Part shown: piece after piece, positions 33,930 to 45,549 of the stretch
How the letters are laid out: each line of letters opens with the position of its first letter
Numbering within the stretch: position 1 is the first letter of the stretch
Assembly: GCF_947495725.1 (NCBI RefSeq)
Contig: NZ_CANLZZ010000005.1
Location: 310,001 to 374,000 of the forward strand
DNA length: 64,000 bases
Direction of reading: 5' to 3'
DNA from: an uncultured Lutibacter sp.
GTDB lineage: Bacteria; Bacteroidota; Bacteroidia; Flavobacteriales; Flavobacteriaceae
Translations under genes and position numbers: made by a program
Notes under the pieces: model-generated
What the model saw: only the letters and a program-made list of their open reading frames with translations
The model's database searches: none
Told to the model about the DNA's origin: nothing

Positions 33930-36788
33930 ATGAAACAAGGTAAAAATATGCACAAAGGAATAAGCCTAATCTTTTTTTTAATATGTATTGGATTTTCAAA
34001 ACTGTATTCGCAAGATATTCACGTGTATTCAACAGATATTCCTTGGGTTCAAGGCTCAATTACTGAAGATTCAGATAAAATATATTCTATTAATGAAGCT
34101 ATTAATCAGGCTTCAAATGGAGATGTAATTATTATTCACGAAGGAATTTATCGTGAAAAAGTTGTTGTTAACAAGAATAATTTAACACTTAAAAATTACA
34201 ATAGTGACTATGTGTTGGTTACAGGAGCTGATAAAGTTTCAGGAACATGGAGCGATGCTACTGGAATGACTTCTGGAGTAAAAGTAATTGATATTTCGGG
34301 TATAAATATAGAAACGGATTACAGTCAGTTGTTTGCAAATGGAAACATTCAAAAATTAGGCCGTCATCCAAATAGAAATATTGAAGATATGATGGAAGTT
34401 ATCCATTCCGATGGTGGTTACGCACCGTTAACCAACGCTTCAAAACCTTCAGGAGCAACTGCTACCGGACAAGTAACTTTTCAAGAAACCACCATTCCAG
34501 ATGTAGATTTAACTGGAGGAATTGTAAGAGCAATGACCGGGAAAATGCGTAATTATGTTTACGGTAACGTTGTTTCAAATTCAGGAAATACAGTTTCATT
34601 TAAGGCTATAAACGGTAATACAGATTGGAAAAAAGATAATGCCATTGCTTCAACAAGATTTAAATTTAGTTGGGGATATGTGTTGCATAAAAATTTGGTT
34701 GACACTAAAGGTGAATGGTTTATTGAAAACAACAAATTGTATTATTTCCCTTCAAACGGAGGAAATATAAATGATTATAGAATTGAATTGCAAACACGTG
34801 AAAAAGTGTTGGTATTAAATAATACAGAAGGCATTCAAGTTTCAGGTATCAATTTTGTTGCCGGAAATGTAGATTTTCAAGATGCCAATAATGCAGTTAT
34901 TGAAGATTGTACATTTAGATATTTGCATCCATTTTGGACTCCAAATGGCTACGGTCAAAATGATACAGATCCGAAAGGAATTTATTTAGAAGATAGCTCA
35001 AATAATACATTTAAAAACACCTATGTTGGTCATAGTTGGGGAAATATGGTTGCGTTGCGCAGTGGAGCAAACAATTCTTTTGAAAACTGTACCATTGAAG
35101 ATTTTGGGTGGGTAGGCGTATTTACTTCAGGAATTCATATAAATAAATCGAACAACACCAATATTAACAATTGTACGTTTGGTGATGCCGGAAGATTTCA
35201 AATTCGTGTTGATGGAGGAGACGCTAAAGTGAATATTATGGATTCGGACTTTTACGGTGCAATGAAAATGGGTGAAGACGCTGGTCCAATTGAAGCAACA
35301 AGTACAGGTAGAATAGAATCTTTAGATTTAAAAGGTGGTGTAATTGCGTATAATAAAATTCACGATGTAAAAGGAATTCCAGTTTCAGATGGTAACTATA
35401 ACAAGCAAAAAATTACTGCTTTTTATATGGAGGACACTGAAAATTATACCGCACATCATAACTTAATTTACAATATAAAAGCGGATAATTATAACGGTTC
35501 AGTAGATATTACACGACACGGTGAATTTTTATATTTAGGTCCTAGATATAACCCAATGGATAATCCTGTAAACTATTATAACAACACTATTTGGAACTAC
35601 GATTTTTGTATTAGTATCTGGAATATTGAAATAGATAATTGGGAAGCATTAGGTTTAGATTTTGATTCTGGTAGAATGACAGATGGACATTTTGCAAATA
35701 ATATTTTTATGTCCGATTCTGATTTTAAATTAAGTTATGTCCGTCAAATTTTGTCAAGTACAGGAGGAAATCAAGGTTATGTTACTTTGAATCCAAGTCC
35801 AAGTTTAGAAACAACTGATTGGAATGAATTTACAACACATTGTGCTAATTATAATTATCATTTTAATCCTGAAAATAATGTATTTTTAAACCTTTCGGAA
35901 GAAAATTCAAATTTTGCTAATGTTGCAAACGGGGACTTTAATTTAAGTAGTTCTTCTTCAGCAATTGCAGCTGGAGTAGAAATACCTGGAATTACTAGTT
36001 CAACAACACCAAACGCTGGGGCTTTAGAAGGTGGAAATAGAGTTTTAAATGCTGGTGCAAATTTAACCTTACCTGATTTTTTAGAGAAAGAATTTTCAAT
36101 ATTAAATACAAAATTTTCAATTGCTATTACTTCAGAAACCTGTCCTGATAAAAACAATGGAACATTAACAATTACGCCAAATATTGAAGCTAATTACCAA
36201 GTAAATTTCAATGGAAATGTTCACGAATTTACTAATGAAATTTCTTTTGAAAATTTAGCCCCAAATTCCTATGAAATATGTATTAATATTGAAGGGGGAA
36301 ATGAAAGTCAGTGTTTTAATGCTAAAGTAAAAGGAGTGGATGAATTATCGTCAAAAACAAGTCTGTCAGGCAAACAATTTGAGGTAAGTATTACATCAGG
36401 AACAGCTCCTTTCCGAGTTTTAGTTAACAATACTCAAATTATGGAAACAACTTCTTCTAAATTTAAAATTGAAGTTAGTCAAGGAGATATTGTAAGCGTA
36501 AAAACGGCAAAAGAATGTGAAGGTGAATTGTTAAAAACCATAGATTTTTATGAGGATGCGAAACCGACACCTAATCCAACAAAAGGAGAATTTAGAATTT
36601 CACTTCCAACTAATGAGGGGAACATTCCTATTGAAATTTACAATGTTCAAGGGCAATTAATTTCTTCAAAAATTTACGCTATAACTTCAAGTGAAGTTGA
36701 GCTTAATTTAAAGGGAAAGCCAGCAGGTGTTTATTTAGTTAAAGTAGGAACAATAAAACCAATATATTTCAAAATAGTAAAATATTAG
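33930..36788 (+). CDS. T9SS-exported right-handed beta-helix protein (polysaccharide lyase/hydrolase-like)
   Basis: 952-aa protein: signal peptide (to about KLYSQ), an N-terminal DUF1565-like start (INEAINQASNGDVIIIHEGIYREKV), a long parallel beta-helix with repeated N-N-T/S-x-F/I-x-N-C-T turns to about residue 690, two beta-sandwich modules, and a C-terminal T9SS sorting domain (PTPNPTKGEFRIS ... GVYLVKVG). The fold is shared by PL6 chondroitinase-B/alginate lyase and several GH families, but no catalytic residues could be matched safely. It is the only PUL product in the window with a clear T9SS tail, so it probably acts at the cell surface on the intact polymer. An alternative start seven codons in (MHKGIS) is possible. 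Confidence 0.83.
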   Translation: MKQGKNMHKGISLIFFLICIGFSKLYSQDIHVYSTDIPWVQGSITEDSDKIYSINEAINQASNGDVIIIHEGIYREKVVVNKNNLTLKNYNSDYVLVTGADKVSGTWSDATGMTSGVKVIDISGINIETDYSQLFANGNIQKLGRHPNRNIEDMMEVIHSDGGYAPLTNASKPSGATATGQVTFQETTIPDVDLTGGIVRAMTGKMRNYVYGNVVSNSGNTVSFKAINGNTDWKKDNAIASTRFKFSWGYVLHKNLVDTKGEWFIENNKLYYFPSNGGNINDYRIELQTREKVLVLNNTEGIQVSGINFVAGNVDFQDANNAVIEDCTFRYLHPFWTPNGYGQNDTDPKGIYLEDSSNNTFKNTYVGHSWGNMVALRSGANNSFENCTIEDFGWVGVFTSGIHINKSNNTNINNCTFGDAGRFQIRVDGGDAKVNIMDSDFYGAMKMGEDAGPIEATSTGRIESLDLKGGVIAYNKIHDVKGIPVSDGNYNKQKITAFYMEDTENYTAHHNLIYNIKADNYNGSVDITRHGEFLYLGPRYNPMDNPVNYYNNTIWNYDFCISIWNIEIDNWEALGLDFDSGRMTDGHFANNIFMSDSDFKLSYVRQILSSTGGNQGYVTLNPSPSLETTDWNEFTTHCANYNYHFNPENNVFLNLSEENSNFANVANGDFNLSSSSSAIAAGVEIPGITSSTTPNAGALEGGNRVLNAGANLTLPDFLEKEFSILNTKFSIAITSETCPDKNNGTLTITPNIEANYQVNFNGNVHEFTNEISFENLAPNSYEICINIEGGNESQCFNAKVKGVDELSSKTSLSGKQFEVSITSGTAPFRVLVNNTQIMETTSSKFKIEVSQGDIVSVKTAKECEGELLKTIDFYEDAKPTPNPTKGEFRISLPTNEGNIPIEIYNVQGQLISSKIYAITSSEVELNLKGKPAGVYLVKVGTIKPIYFKIVKY

Positions 36789-40236: not shown

Positions 40237-40884
40237 TTAACTAAATAAACCTAATTGATTTGAATTTGGTTTTAATGAAGTAGCAATTAAGTTATTACTA
40301 TACGGATAAGCAAATTGTTTGTAATTGGTACCACTTAACCAATTTTGTTCGTCTTCTTTTTTTAAAATAATAGGCATCCGTTGTTTGGTGTTATGTATTT
40401 CGCTCATTAATTCATTCGCTTCTGTAGTAATTATTGTGTACGAATTTAAAGTTGTGTCATTAAAATTTGTCCACTGTGTGTATAAACCTGCAAAGGCAAA
40501 TAATTCTTCGTTTGGAAGCGTGATTAAAAATTTTTCTTTTTTAGAACCGCTTTTAGTTTTCCATTGCCATTCATAAAAACCATCAGCAATAATTAAACAG
40601 CGATTTTGTACTACATCTTTAAACGATTTTTTTTCGTTTAAAGTTTCTATTCTAGCATTTAAGGTGTAATTTCTTATAGATTCATCTTGCGACCAACTTG
40701 GAACTAATCCCCAATTGTAGAACTGTATTTTTTTAGGGTTTTTATTTGTAATTATAGGAGTTTTTGGATATTCAAAAGCGCTACAAAACTCAATAGGCTC
40801 ATAATCATTCAAATCATCTAAAGCGGTGTTAAAACGCTCCATTAATTCTTCTTTTTGCTTAATAATTCGTGTTTGATAGCACAT
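40237..40884 (-). CDS. yedK: SRAP-domain protein (YedK/HMCES family)
   Basis: 215-aa SOS-response-associated protein that crosslinks to abasic sites in single-stranded DNA to shield them. Catalytic features are Cys2 right after the initiator Met (MCYQTRI), YTLNARIET with the Asn, CLIIADGFYEW with the Glu, and HNTKQRMP with the His. Length is normal. It lies 10 bp downstream of a small XRE regulator on the same strand, and both diverge from a DnaE-DinB pair, so it is part of a DNA-damage-tolerance unit. Regulation is probably by the XRE protein at the palindrome between the divergent genes. Confidence 0.9.
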   Translation of the reverse strand: MCYQTRIIKQKEELMERFNTALDDLNDYEPIEFCSAFEYPKTPIITNKNPKKIQFYNWGLVPSWSQDESIRNYTLNARIETLNEKKSFKDVVQNRCLIIADGFYEWQWKTKSGSKKEKFLITLPNEELFAFAGLYTQWTNFNDTTLNSYTIITTEANELMSEIHNTKQRMPIILKKEDEQNWLSGTNYKQFAYPYSNNLIATSLKPNSNQLGLFS

Positions 40885-40894
40885 AAAAAATTAT

Positions 40895-41113
40895 TTAAAG
40901 TTCTAAGTTATTTAAATTTTCTTTAATTAATACATCCATAGAAATATTTATGTACTCCGATAGACTGATTAAAAACTCAATAGGAGGTGACGCTCTTTTG
41001 TCTTCATACGAACTAATTCTTGAGCGCGAGACTTTTAAATCTTCGGCAAGTCGCTCTTGAGAAAGTCCTTTTAAAGCTCTAATATATTTAATGTTTTTTG
41101 CTAAATAATTCAT
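40895..41113 (-). CDS. Small XRE-family HTH regulator
   Basis: 72-aa protein made almost entirely of a helix-turn-helix domain (about residues 7-62: IRALKGLSQERLAEDLKVSRSRISSYE). It has no LexA-like autocleavage domain. It begins the leftward operon with the SRAP gene and faces the DnaE gene across 86 bp that hold a perfect inverted repeat, the likely binding site. It probably autoregulates and controls both directions. How DNA damage would be sensed by so small a protein is not visible; a separate protease, a partner or simple dilution are possible. Confidence 0.85.
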   Translation of the reverse strand: MNYLAKNIKYIRALKGLSQERLAEDLKVSRSRISSYEDKRASPPIEFLISLSEYINISMDVLIKENLNNLEL

Positions 41114-41125
41114 AATGCTAATAAA

Positions 41126-41144
41126 TTGAGCAACACTTGCTCAA
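41126..41144. promoter_or_regulatory. Palindromic operator between XRE and DnaE genes
   Basis: TTGAGCAACACTTGCTCAA is a perfect 8+8-bp inverted repeat with a 3-bp centre, located 12 bp upstream of the XRE start and 55 bp upstream of the DnaE start. This is the size expected for a dimeric XRE repressor. A TAATTTAG at 41154-41161 resembles the Bacteroidota -7 box TAnnTTTG (one mismatch) for rightward transcription. Binding is inferred from position and symmetry. Confidence 0.65.
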
Positions 41145-41199
41145 ATAATAAGCTAATTTAGCAAAATATAAAGTTTATTAAAAATATTAGTTATTAACA

Positions 41200-44169
41200 A
41201 TGTATTTGAATTCACATACATATTATAGTTTACGATATGGTACAGTGTCGCCTAAAGAACTTATAGATAGCGCTTTAAGTTTAGGTGTTAAAACATTTTG
41301 TTTAACAGATATTAATAGTACTTCAGCAAATTTAGAGTTTGTTCGTTTGGCTCAAAAAAAAGAACTTAAACCAATACTTGGAGTCGATTTTAGAAATGGG
41401 GCTAAACAACAATTTATTGTATTAGCTAAAAATAATAATGGTTACCAACTTGTAAATAATTACCTATCAGAGTTATTGCATTTAGATAATTTTGAAGTGC
41501 CTATAAAAGCAAAACAGCTTCCAAATACGTATGTTATTTATCCCTTTAAAACAGAAGTTTTTAAATTATTAGAAAACGAATTTATAGGAATAAAACCATT
41601 AGATTTAAATTATTTAAAGTTTTCTGAATGGAGGTTTCAACAACATAAATTAGTAATCTTAAAAACGGTTTCATTTCAAAATAAAAAGGGATTTAATACA
41701 CACAGATTATTACGAGCCATAGATAACAATACGTTATTAAGTAAACTTTCAAAAACAGAGCAAGGAGAGGAATCTGATGTAATGATTTCAGAAGAAATTT
41801 TAAAAGAAATATATAAAGAATATCCTCAAATTATTGAAAACACGAAGTGGTTATTGAGTAGTTGTTCTATTGATTTTCAGTTTTCTAATGCTAAACCAAA
41901 AAACCAAGAGACATACACCTGTAATAAAGATTTAGATTTTAAATTATTACGTAAATTGGCTTATGAGGGTTTAAATTATCGGTATAAAAAAATAGGGAAA
42001 CGTGTATTTGAACGATTAGAAAAAGAGCTTAAAATTATTAAGGAAAAACAATTTGTATCGTATTTTTTAATTAATTGGAAAATTTTAAAATATGCGAGAA
42101 GCAAAGGATATTATTATGTAGGAAGAGGAAGTGGAGCCAATAGTATTATTGCATATTTATTAAGAATTACCGATGTTGATCCTATTGAATTAGATTTGTA
42201 TTTTGAACGATTTATTAATCTATACCGTACAAATCCACCCGATTTTGATATTGATTTTTCGTGGCGAGATAGAGATGATGTAATGAATTATATTTTTAAA
42301 ACATTTAAAAACACATCACTTATTGCGGTTTATAATACGTTTAAATACAAAGCTTCGGTTCGTGAAATTGGTAAAGTTTTTGGACTTCCAAAAGAAGAAA
42401 TAGATAAGCTTACGTTAGGGAATTTTAATGTTCATAAACTCGATGAGCTATCTCGTTTAGTCTTGGTTTATAGTAAGTTAATAAAAGGTTTTCCTAATTA
42501 TTTAGGAATTCATCCGGGAGGTATTTTAATTTCAGAAAAACCAATTAATTATTACACAGCAACTTATTTACCTCCAAAAGGGTTTTCAACAGCAATGTTC
42601 GATATGGTTGTGGCTGAAGATATTGGTTTGTACAAATTTGATATTTTAAGTCAGCGTGGTTTGGGTAAAATTCGCGAAGCAGTTGATATTGTAAAATACA
42701 ATCACCCAAAACTTCCAGAAATAGATATACACGATATTAAACGGTTTAAGGAAGATTTAAAAATTAAAATAATGCTAAAAAATGCCAAAGCTATTGGTTG
42801 TTTTTATGTAGAATCTCCGGCAATGCGTATGCTGCTTAAAAAGTTACAAGTAGATAATTATTTGGGTTTGGTAGCTGCAAGTTCGGTAATTCGTCCGGGT
42901 GTTGCAAAATCGGGAATGATGCGCGAATATATTTTACGTTATAGAAATCCGGAACGAAGAAAAGATGCACATCCTATATTATTAGATATAATGCCTGAAA
43001 CGTATGGTGTAATGGTATATCAGGAAGATGTGATAAAAGTAGCGCATCATTTTGGAGGTTTAAGTTTGGGAGAAGCCGATATGTTACGCCGTGGAATGAG
43101 TGGTAAATTTCGTTCGAGAGATGAGTTTATGAAAGTTAAAAATCAGTTTTTTGAAAACTGTAAACAGAAAGGAGAAAGCTTTGAGTTAACTTCAGAAATA
43201 TGGCGACAAATAGAGAGTTTTGCTGGTTATGCGTTTGCCAAAGGACATTCGGCTTCGTATGCGGTTGAAAGTTACCAAAGTCTGTTTTTAAAAGCCTACT
43301 ATCCATTAGAATATATGGTAGCAACACTAAATAATTTTGGAGGTTTTTACCGTCCAGAATATTATGTACACGAAGCCCGAATGAATGGTGGAATTATACA
43401 TCCCCCAACAATCAATAAATCGTATTATCATAATTATATCGAAGGAAATAACATTTACTTAGGCTTTATAATGTTACAATCTTTTGAAGTGAAAAATGCA
43501 TCTAAAATTGTAGCTGAAAGAACTAAAAACGGAGCGTTTTTAAACTTAGATGATTTTATAGATCGGGTAGCAATTTCATTAGAGCAGATTTCAATTTTAA
43601 TTAAGGTCAATGCGTTTAAATTTACGGGTAGAAATAAAAGAGAATTACTATGGGAAGCACATATGAAAGTAAATAAAGTGTGTTTAGAAGAGCATATAGT
43701 AACGTTGTTTAAGTCGGAAAAAGTTACTTATAAAACGCCAGAATTAATAAGCTCAAACTTAGAAGATGCTTTTGATGAATTACAATACATTGGTTTTCCT
43801 TTAAGCAGTCCGTTTAGGTTATTAACTAAGCCTGTAAATCAGCAATTATTTGCTGCAGATTTGCTAAAATTTGTTAATAAAACAGTAACAGTTTATGGCT
43901 ATTATGTTACGGTTAAAAGAACGTCCACTTCAAAAGGAAATTTAATGTATTTTGGAACTTTTATAGATAGTAAAGGCGATCATATTGATACGGTACATTT
44001 TCCTCCTTCAGCAAAAAAATATCCTATTAAAGGACGCGGGATTTACAAAATAATAGGAAAAGTAACCGCAGAATTTGATTGTGTAAGTATTGAAGTTGAC
44101 ATGTTAGAAAAACTGGCAATTATGCAAGATCCACGTTATACAGATGAACCAATAGAAAAAGTAATATAA
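41200..44169 (+). CDS. dnaE: Alternative DNA polymerase III alpha subunit (DnaE-type, putative error-prone)
   Basis: 989-aa C-family polymerase, shorter than the replicative DnaE (usually ~1150 aa or more). The N-terminal PHP domain is degenerate: MYLNSHTYYSL lacks the first His and LTDIN replaces TDH, so proofreading-type metal binding is doubtful. The palm motif PPDFDIDFSW gives catalytic Asp350 and Asp352; HPGGILIS and the helix-hairpin region follow, and a C-terminal OB fold covers about 885-960. It stands 3 bp before dinB and opposite SRAP/XRE, which points to translesion synthesis and away from chromosome replication. It plays a role like that of ImuC/DnaE2, though no ImuA or ImuB is here. 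Confidence 0.88.
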   Translation: MYLNSHTYYSLRYGTVSPKELIDSALSLGVKTFCLTDINSTSANLEFVRLAQKKELKPILGVDFRNGAKQQFIVLAKNNNGYQLVNNYLSELLHLDNFEVPIKAKQLPNTYVIYPFKTEVFKLLENEFIGIKPLDLNYLKFSEWRFQQHKLVILKTVSFQNKKGFNTHRLLRAIDNNTLLSKLSKTEQGEESDVMISEEILKEIYKEYPQIIENTKWLLSSCSIDFQFSNAKPKNQETYTCNKDLDFKLLRKLAYEGLNYRYKKIGKRVFERLEKELKIIKEKQFVSYFLINWKILKYARSKGYYYVGRGSGANSIIAYLLRITDVDPIELDLYFERFINLYRTNPPDFDIDFSWRDRDDVMNYIFKTFKNTSLIAVYNTFKYKASVREIGKVFGLPKEEIDKLTLGNFNVHKLDELSRLVLVYSKLIKGFPNYLGIHPGGILISEKPINYYTATYLPPKGFSTAMFDMVVAEDIGLYKFDILSQRGLGKIREAVDIVKYNHPKLPEIDIHDIKRFKEDLKIKIMLKNAKAIGCFYVESPAMRMLLKKLQVDNYLGLVAASSVIRPGVAKSGMMREYILRYRNPERRKDAHPILLDIMPETYGVMVYQEDVIKVAHHFGGLSLGEADMLRRGMSGKFRSRDEFMKVKNQFFENCKQKGESFELTSEIWRQIESFAGYAFAKGHSASYAVESYQSLFLKAYYPLEYMVATLNNFGGFYRPEYYVHEARMNGGIIHPPTINKSYYHNYIEGNNIYLGFIMLQSFEVKNASKIVAERTKNGAFLNLDDFIDRVAISLEQISILIKVNAFKFTGRNKRELLWEAHMKVNKVCLEEHIVTLFKSEKVTYKTPELISSNLEDAFDELQYIGFPLSSPFRLLTKPVNQQLFAADLLKFVNKTVTVYGYYVTVKRTSTSKGNLMYFGTFIDSKGDHIDTVHFPPSAKKYPIKGRGIYKIIGKVTAEFDCVSIEVDMLEKLAIMQDPRYTDEPIEKVI

Positions 44170-44172
44170 ATT

Positions 44173-45384
44173 ATGGAACGCTCAATAGTACATATGGATT
44201 TAGACACTTTTTTTGTATCGTGCGAACGTTTAATTGATAGTAGATTAAACAATAGACCTGTATTAATTGGAGGAACTTCAGATAGAGGTGTAGTGGCAAG
44301 TTGTAGTTACGAAGCACGTAAATATGGTGTACACTCTGCAATGCCAATGCGCATGGCAAAACAATTATGTCCTGAAGCAATAGTTTTAAGAGGTAATTCG
44401 GGAATTTATACAAAGTACTCAAAATTAGTAACCGATGTTATAAAAGATACGGTTCCGTTGTATGAAAAATCTTCAATAGATGAGTTTTATATAGATTTAA
44501 CAGGAATGGATCAATTTTTTGGCTGTCATCAATTAGCTTCGGAGTTACGAACAAAAATTATAAGAGAAACAGGTTTGCCAATTTCATTTGGTTTGTCAGC
44601 AAATAAAACGGTTTCAAAAATAGCAACGGGAGAGGCAAAACCTAACAACGAGATAAAAGTAAATGTAGGAACCGAAAAACCATTTTTAGCACCACTTTCG
44701 GTACGGAAAATTCCAATGGTAGGAGAGAAGACGTATAACTCGTTATGCGATTTAGGAATTAAACGTATTAAAACAGTGCAAGAAATGCCTATTGATATGA
44801 TGACACGTGTTTTTGGTAAACACGGATCGGGTATTTGGAAAAAAGCAAATGGAATAGATAATTCACCTGTAATTCGCTATCACGAGCGCAAGTCTATTTC
44901 AACAGAACGTACATTTGATAAAGATACAACAGATATTGTAAAACTGAAAAGTATTATTGTTGCAATGGCTGAAAATTTAATATATCAATTGCGAAGAGGT
45001 GATAAATTAACAGCGTGTGTAACGTTTAAAATACGGTATTCCGATTTTCAAACGTACACCAAACAACAGCGAATTCCTTATAGTTCATCCGATCACTCTA
45101 TTTTACCAATTGTAATGAACCTTTATGAAAGTTTATATCAGCGAAGATTGTTGGTGCGTTTAATAGGTGTTAAATTTAGCCATTTAGTAAGTGGAGGACA
45201 TCAAATTAATTTATTTGAAGACAATGAGAAAATAATGAATTTGTATCAGGCAATGGATAAAATGCGTGAACGTTATGGAGATAGGGCTGTAATACGAGCT
45301 TCAGGTATGGGAGCAAAAAGTATAAGTAGATGGAATCCTTTTAGTGGAGAGCCACCACCATTATTACCAAATAGAAGAAGATAA
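44173..45384 (+). CDS. dinB: DNA polymerase IV-type Y-family polymerase (DinB)
   Basis: 403-aa translesion polymerase. Catalytic acidic residues are Asp9 (HMDLDTFF) and Asp103-Glu104 (SSIDEFYID); the steric and fingers region SCSYEARKYGVHSAMP is typical. The thumb and little-finger domains follow, and near residue 344 QINLFED fits a beta-clamp-binding motif. It lies 3 bp after the alternative DnaE gene, so the two polymerases are cotranscribed and could act together: DinB inserting and DnaE extending. DinB family is certain; the partnership is inferred from the operon. Confidence 0.93.
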   Translation: MERSIVHMDLDTFFVSCERLIDSRLNNRPVLIGGTSDRGVVASCSYEARKYGVHSAMPMRMAKQLCPEAIVLRGNSGIYTKYSKLVTDVIKDTVPLYEKSSIDEFYIDLTGMDQFFGCHQLASELRTKIIRETGLPISFGLSANKTVSKIATGEAKPNNEIKVNVGTEKPFLAPLSVRKIPMVGEKTYNSLCDLGIKRIKTVQEMPIDMMTRVFGKHGSGIWKKANGIDNSPVIRYHERKSISTERTFDKDTTDIVKLKSIIVAMAENLIYQLRRGDKLTACVTFKIRYSDFQTYTKQQRIPYSSSDHSILPIVMNLYESLYQRRLLVRLIGVKFSHLVSGGHQINLFEDNEKIMNLYQAMDKMRERYGDRAVIRASGMGAKSISRWNPFSGEPPPLLPNRRR

Positions 45385-45549
45385 CTAATTGCTAGATTTG
45401 TTTTTAAGCTCATGCATTTTTTTTACCATTTCTTTTAAACGATTTTCACGAGCAATTTTGTCTTCTCTTTCCTTATTTTTCTTTCTATTCATAAGTTTAC
45501 TATGTTTAGCTTTGTTTTTGGTGTTTTTTGGTGAGCCTTTTTTTGCCAT
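45385..45549 (-). CDS. Small basic protein, 54 aa, unknown function
   Basis: A short frame on the minus strand starts ATG at 45549 and ends exactly at the base after the dinB stop. The product opens MAKKGSPKNTKNKAKHSK and is very rich in Lys/Arg, with a charged helical C-terminal half (KEREDKIARENRLKEMVKKM). Such composition is typical of small RNA- or ribosome-associated proteins, but no family is claimed. The codons look real (no rare runs, clean start). It is convergent with dinB; its promoter would lie in the 45.55-45.8 kb gap. Confidence 0.6.
   Translation of the reverse strand: MAKKGSPKNTKNKAKHSKLMNRKKNKEREDKIARENRLKEMVKKMHELKNKSSN

Follow-up and report, generated by a model that had tools for sequence, protein, structure and literature searches.

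The window, a 64,000-nucleotide stretch of a contig from an uncultured Lutibacter sp., contains two divergent gene pairs: a leftward pair encoding a small XRE-type regulator and, after 10 bp, an SRAP protein, and a rightward pair encoding a DnaE-type polymerase α subunit and, after 3 bp, a DinB-type polymerase (Table 1). Open reading frames and Pfam matches confirmed the positions, strands and families that a first-pass annotation had assigned to the four genes, and its single control region between the SRAP-XRE and polymerase genes also stood. This region is the 86-bp gap between the starts of the XRE gene and dnaE. It holds a predicted tandem operator at positions 41117-41162, which the first-pass annotation had missed, as it had missed that the XRE protein is a truncated LexA. 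A lysine-rich 54-aa open reading frame (45385-45549, minus strand) adjoins the dinB stop codon in tail-to-tail orientation and matched nothing in Pfam or NCBIfam at a threshold of 0.001. Between positions 33930 and 50138, the locus lies amid secreted carbohydrate-related genes unrelated to DNA repair; one encodes a PhoD-like phosphatase, and others, judged from sequence features, presumably encode a sulfatase-like protein and glycosidase-like proteins.

Table 1. Features of the locus and the unlinked full-length regulator gene; positions refer to the window unless a contig or locus is named.
Feature	Position	Strand	Description
SRAP (HMCES/YedK-type abasic-site protein), 215 aa	40237-40884	-	Pfam SRAP, 9.5e-51; second gene in leftward pair
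HTH-only XRE protein, 72 aa	40895-41113	-	Pfam HTH_3, 1.1e-13; truncated paralogue of non-canonical LexA, without linker and S24 domain
DnaE2B-type polymerase α subunit, 989 aa	41200-44169	+	Pfam DNA_pol3_alpha, 1.3e-61; PDFDIDF active site at 347; degenerate PHP
DinB-type Y-family polymerase, 403 aa	44173-45384	+	Pfam IMS, 7.6e-45; DLD, SIDE, QINLF at 344, RecA-N-terminus-like tail
O1, GCTAATAAATTGAGC	41117-41131	.	Predicted operator; class of the published CTAA-N5-TTAG (PMC8565304)
O2, GCTCAAATAATAAGC	41139-41153	.	Predicted operator; 22 bp from O1
Palindrome, TTGAGCAACACTTGCTCAA	41126-41144		Within O1 and O2
O3, GCTAATTTAGC (or GCTAAATTAGC)	41152-41162	.	Conserved where the regulator faces dnaE, in the genus and in G097
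Full-length non-canonical LexA, 257 aa	G000 (window genome) C5:284936-285706 (= L119:3437-4210)		PF01381 and PF00717

The DnaE of the locus would have been replicative, contrary to the first-pass annotation, had it been the sole α subunit; its genome, however, also encodes a replicative copy of 1532 aa (DnaE1, fused to a DnaQ-like exonuclease) on contig C2. The PHP motifs of the locus protein had been called degenerate, and an alignment with DnaE1 bore this out: the metal ligands are gone, with MYLNSHT and TDINS in place of AHLHCHS and TDTGN. The full PHP motif is not kept by the replicative copy or by E. coli α either, both deviating at the second place, so that PHP substitutions alone count for little. 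The catalytic PDFDIDF motif of the locus DnaE is intact. DinB keeps its catalytic motifs DLD and SIDE and a clamp motif (QINLF), and its tail aligned with the N-terminus of the genome's own RecA with a score of 33, the best of 1000 shuffles reaching 29. PF00817 matches two proteins of the window genome, this DinB and one more, and a Pfam scan of six proteins in the neighborhood detected no ImuA. The ImuA-ImuB-DnaE2 cassette is characterized by ImuA and an inactive PolY, ImuB, beside DnaE2; the PolY found here retains its catalytic motifs. Judged by the described group and the gene pairing, the pair fits the Bacteroidetes DnaE2B-PolY-RecA type, in which a C-family accessory polymerase with PHP substitutions adjoins an active-motif PolY with clamp and RecA-N-terminus-like motifs; we found no difference from that type as set out in the consulted part of its description (PMC12926913). 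The first-pass annotation was thus right to see DinB in the place of ImuB, beside a DnaE that is probably accessory and error-prone, in an arrangement already published.

Near full-length DnaE proteins of this type (at least 47% identity) occur in 87 of 149 family genomes. All 90 copies have a DinB gene on the same strand within 1 kb, with dnaE first in 36 and dinB first in 54 cases, so the pairing is not due to chance. SRAP was matched near 14 of the 90 loci (with flanks of only 1.5 kb fetched at 30 of them). Three family genomes contain two DnaE2B-DinB pairs each: G054 (L067, L068), G145 (L058, L074) and G080 (L056, L085). Most relatives have less than 150 bp between the polymerase genes; in L032 and L051 the distance is 841 and 832 bp. 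Relatives of the DnaE with 46-50% identity are located on plasmids of Emticicia, Chryseobacterium and Adhaeribacter (NC_018742.1, NZ_CP033916.1 and NZ_CP055155.1), and a dinB gene is annotated beside the one on NC_018742.1.

The SRAP protein contains Cys2 and the Asn (at 76), Glu and His of the motifs LNAR, YEW and IHNT, residues that we take to be catalytic, and matches the YedK and HMCES chains. It is an optional member of the locus. Operons in which SRAP adjoins a DinB-DnaE unit have been described (PMC3765255); compared with the operons covered there, the SRAP gene of our locus lies in the divergent operon, behind the regulator. A complete layout, with XRE-S24 regulator, DnaQ/GIY-YIG nuclease and SRAP genes facing dnaE-dinB, is found in Lutibacter NORP71 (L118) and in G160 (L205). 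The idea that SRAP replaces the peptidase half of LexA was dropped, because relatives already carry SRAP downstream of a complete regulator.

The XRE protein corresponds to one half of a repressor. Over residues 1-69 it shares 67% identity with the 257-aa full-length regulator that its genome also encodes, and homologous regulators at the same position in relatives mostly comprise 254-277 aa. It possesses the CI-type HTH of the Bacteroidetes non-canonical LexA proteins and ends at residue 72, without the Ala-Gly site and Ser-Lys dyad of the S24 domain. Because this domain is absent, we regard the protein as a truncated paralogue and not as a LexA, and refer to it as the half-repressor. Its gene starts at C5:351113, 66 kb from the full-length gene and inverted relative to it. 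The unlinked full-length copy combines the HTH with an S24 domain containing Ala106-Gly107, Ser143 and Lys182 (Ser-Lys spacing 39), which are present in all 17 aligned full-length rows; by sequence, such XRE-S24 proteins belong to the non-canonical LexA family. When LexA of the GGA-N5-TCC type was sought in seven genomes, the sole responder in the window genome was the CTAA-type copy, with 30% identity. The unlinked gene overlaps a gene for a DnaQ-exonuclease/GIY-YIG (Cho-like) fusion by 1 bp (L119:3437-5568), and at 6 of 15 unlinked full-length loci a gene adjoins whose product we take to be phosphofructokinase-like.

The AlphaFold model of the half-repressor (pLDDT 93, five helices) matches the folds of SinR, P22 c2, CylR2 and 434 Cro, all of which bind DNA via such small domains. 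The recognition-helix region VSRSRISSYE is identical in the half-repressor of the window and the full-length copy. Five complete half-repressors of the genus have a common tail, L(N/D)xLE(L/V/Q), which is absent from the full-length protein; the tail of G097, a genome of another genus, differs.

For exemplars of the non-canonical LexA family, dyad binding by EMSA and damage induction by RT-qPCR have been reported (PMC8565304, 2021). One member of its CTAA-N5-TTAG group was shown with a divergent error-prone polymerase gene, both being damage-induced, and the predicted targets of that group include SRAP and GIY-YIG/DnaQ exonuclease (PMC8565304). An XRE HTH plus S24 regulator and a dyad with a 5-bp spacer are common to both systems, whereas at our locus the S24 domain is missing entirely from the regulator and the gene for the full-length protein lies elsewhere. 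We found no description of HTH-only members in the consulted part of that account (PMC8565304), where the word 'truncated' appears in a reference title alone, and a literature search among open-licence papers retrieved no account of a Bacteroidetes mutasome with an HTH-only LexA.

Next to the regulator genes, half-sites occur at fixed places, as seen in a gapless alignment from the regulator start codon: GCTNA-N5-TNAGC is present twice with a 22-bp pitch. The alignment included 7 HTH-only rows, 7 rows with a full-length gene at dnaE (the remainder of 18 after dropping identical ones and the divergent G022) and 15 unlinked promoters. A third element, GCTAA(T/A)TTAGC (O3), is found at the dnaE-facing loci only and not in the promoters of unlinked full-length genes: its positions G51 and C52 are kept in all 14 dnaE-facing rows and are unconserved in the 15 unlinked ones. 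In the unlinked promoters, the half-sites are also less strict, their G and C positions being kept in 11 to 14 of 15. The predicted tandem operator is of the published CTAA-N5-TTAG class with changed positions (PMC8565304).

Five sites in the window genome match the 37-bp tandem pattern with up to three mismatches, as many as for a reversed-pattern control. The site in the window has no mismatch, a tandem of the CTAA-N5-TTAG class in the promoter of the unlinked full-length gene itself (C5:284896-284932) has one, and the other three have three each; at two or fewer mismatches, there is none in this genome beyond the two regulator loci. In G152, which belongs to the same genus and matches the DnaE of Lutibacter flavus DSM 27993 at 100% identity, seven sites were found against two in the control, with zero and one mismatch at the same two loci and three at the remaining five. 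GCTNA-N5-TNAGC has three occurrences in the 64-kb window, including O1 and O2. Since the genome scans covered the tandem pattern, the regulon may exceed the two loci. The palindrome TTGAGCAA-N3-TTGCTCAA gave 57 genome sites with up to three mismatches, compared with 30 for the reversed pattern; besides the window site, four have two mismatches, all inside open reading frames of 294-671 aa and not SOS-like. The recA promoters of the window genome and G152 contain neither CTNA-N5-TNAG nor GGA-N5-TCC within 300 bp; for the window genome, this fits the link between paralogy and regulon reduction described for non-canonical LexA (PMC8565304). A strict CTNA-N5-TNAG dyad within 150 bp was detected at none of the 39 family loci with a full-length CTAA-type neighbor; visual inspection showed variant palindromes, for instance CTACA-N3-TGTAG, in agreement with the published drift of the CTAA-N5-TTAG motif (PMC8565304).

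We surveyed which regulator accompanies the polymerase genes in relatives. Among the 90 family loci, 39 have an adjacent full-length CTAA-type regulator, 5 one of the GGA-N5-TCC type, 44 neither and 2, the window and G097, an HTH-only protein (the fetched flanks reached only 1.5 kb at 30 loci). A GGA-N5-TCC site lies within 150 bp of the first polymerase gene in 36 of the 44 loci without regulator. The genus is represented by 38 genomes, several of them incomplete, which limits the following counts. A complete HTH-only gene at dnaE together with a full-length gene elsewhere is present in five (G000, G150, G151, G152 and G154), and G171 has a full-length copy elsewhere and an HTH gene at dnaE that is cut by a contig end. 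In thirteen, the full-length gene is located at dnaE, and no other copy exceeds 50% identity. In G044 and G159, a full-length gene stands beside a dnaE relic; at a further, complete dnaE of G159, the regulator is interrupted by a contig end. Contig ends also cut G153, G162 and G179, eight genomes have a full-length regulator without such a DnaE, and six have no convincing regulator. The relic of G044 (L120:4720-7987) consists of a complete regulator and nuclease, an SRAP gene with an internal stop and about the first 120 codons of dnaE. Outside the genus, G097 is split likewise, with a half-repressor at dnaE and the full-length gene elsewhere. The full-length regulator was searched for with the protein itself, as Pfam S24 missed some cases (e.g., G022, which has the regulator at the locus).

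A profile of the half-repressor gave at least 142 matches of 50 bits or more in 397 family genomes, 139 of them in frames of 246-312 codons; among the matches listed at this threshold, three are HTH-only, in frames of 81-84 codons (G000, G154 and G097). Weaker matches, below 50 bits, include short frames (78-163 aa; G428, G395, G310, G294, G038, G336, G124 and G112), which were taken as more distant XRE proteins. The truncation is no assembly artefact, as it recurs in five genomes of the genus and in G097. The idea that both layouts stem from an inversion between two HTH copies was dropped, because no additional HTH-only copy was found in any of the 13 genomes whose full-length gene is at dnaE.

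In an HTH tree of 68 columns (G171 omitted; bootstrap not settled), the five half-repressors of the genus group together (99/94), and a branch (87/75) has all six on the same side. Split and unsplit genomes alternate in the DnaE tree, which places G171 with G184 (100/99); the split labels cluster on it no more than in 139 of 500 shuffles. The disagreement between both trees indicates that the regulator and polymerase sides have partly separate histories, which exchange between strains or repeated truncation could have produced. Half-repressors may have arisen twice, as the Lutibacter and G097 stubs have unrelated C-terminal tails. Gene conversion left no clear sign: half-repressor and full-length HTH have an identity of 0.63-0.76 within genomes, inside the between-genome range, with the exception of G151, where the genome's own full-length copy ranks highest by 0.01.

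Based on these observations, we propose a split SOS regulon in which a cleavable LexA opens the mutasome and the half-repressor reoccupies O1 and O2 and shuts it off, being Cro to LexA's CI; we consider this plausible but put it forward tentatively. The locus would be the mutasome part of a small regulon, with LexA and the DnaQ/GIY-YIG nuclease 66 kb off. As both loci carry one tandem operator, the full-length LexA should silence both through it. Upon damage, RecA filaments would trigger LexA self-cleavage at Ala106-Gly107 by the Ser143-Lys182 dyad, and loss of LexA would lead to production of DnaE2B, DinB, SRAP and the half-repressor. For bypass, DinB would then tether DnaE2B to both RecA and the clamp, while abasic sites in exposed single strands would be covered by SRAP; LexA cleavage, the RecA complex and the SRAP role are modeled on the published families. 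Meanwhile, the half-repressor, itself expressed from this operator, would build up, reoccupy O1 and O2 and close the mutasome while damage persists, thereby limiting the mutagenic pulse. Since it has no cleavage domain, it should be blind to RecA and could re-close the mutasome during damage. This Cro-like shut-off is a proposal of the present analysis only. In lambdoid phages, CI and Cro likewise represent a cleavable repressor and a small HTH-only protein acting on the same sites; here, by contrast, the two proteins are closely related paralogues, and their target would be a mutasome on the chromosome. A more doubtful extension of the proposal is that one chromosomal SOS repressor was duplicated and one copy lost its sensor half, giving rise to a pair of the CI/Cro type in which a damage-blind stub with an unchanged recognition helix caps the mutagenic pulse.

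Alternatively, the half-repressor could be a leftover without regulatory role, its frame being kept as the upstream gene or translational coupler of SRAP, and the unlinked LexA alone would control the mutasome via the shared operator. The 10-bp distance to SRAP is in line with coupling, and a half-repressor is not needed at such loci, because 44 of 90 show no adjacent regulator and 36 of these have the GGA-N5-TCC site. The frames, however, are under apparent purifying selection. Their dN/dS (Nei-Gojobori, codons 2-67) is 0.06-0.34 in 18 of 21 pairs, the other three being saturated; the full-length HTH from these seven genomes gave 0.04-0.21 in 19 of 21 pairs. With many dS values above 1, these ratios are rough. 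No stop occurs in the five complete genus copies or in G097, while 85% of 20000 unconstrained copies gained one when the divergence between G000 and G152 was simulated with uniform substitutions. This pair differs by 11 of 71 amino acids against a mean expectation of 20.7, and no simulated copy had so few changes. G151, whose copy evolves faster (0.21-0.34) and has changed recognition-helix residues, agrees better with a leftover. G154, where SRAP is in fragments yet the HTH frame is intact, speaks against this reading, as does the tail common to the five genus copies and absent from the full-length protein. On balance, we regard a leftover as unlikely.

Less probable still is that the half-repressor activates or de-represses, either by competing with LexA at O1/O2 without repressing or by recruiting RNA polymerase. 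The precedent is gp6 of phage GIL01, a truncated LexA homologue that directly activates the phage promoter P3, delaying the late genes (PMC6182141). Like gp6, the half-repressor is a LexA DNA-binding domain alone beside a full-length LexA, and its VSRSRISSYE region is the same as that of the full-length copy. The phage activator, however, has its own site beside the LexA boxes (PMC6182141), whereas the only sites recognized here are the LexA-type operators themselves. The original idea of a self-contained module in which the minimal XRE replaces LexA, which would require a cellular protease or SRAP to relieve repression, draws on a regulator gene divergent from dnaE and adjoining the operator, but is very improbable: a full-length LexA-type gene is encoded elsewhere in all six split genus genomes and G097, the same operator precedes it in both genomes tested (window genome and G152), 39 of 90 family loci have the full-length protein next to them, the XRE is a truncated paralogue of a regulator with self-cleavage residues encoded 66 kb off, and SRAP is optional.

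For the split regulon with a Cro-like half-repressor, we count that all six split genomes of the genus have the full-length copy elsewhere. Against it count the looser half-sites in the unlinked promoters, the conflict between the HTH and DnaE trees and the fast G151 copy. In addition, S24 repressors dimerise through the domain that was lost, according to the consulted part of PMC8565304, and the operator affinity of the half-repressor may therefore be weak. DdiA of Myxococcus xanthus is another XRE protein that affects an error-prone DnaE2 in the damage response; it differs in that it is described as activating dnaE2, directly or not, independently of LexA, and we set it beside the locus XRE by description only (PMC12288472). 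In the main text of the DnaE2B-PolY-RecA paper (PMC12926913), the word XRE is absent.

Taken together, the polymerase machine of this locus is of a known kind, and the half-repressor is a new twist on its possible control. To our knowledge, how mutagenesis is switched off is less understood than how it is switched on. A natural, conserved fragment of the SOS repressor that lacks the cleavage domain and is located at the mutasome, combined with the full repressor and the same operators, provides a test case for a genetically encoded off-timer. The pair of half-repressor and LexA is also a test case for the duplication of an SOS repressor and the subsequent division of labor.
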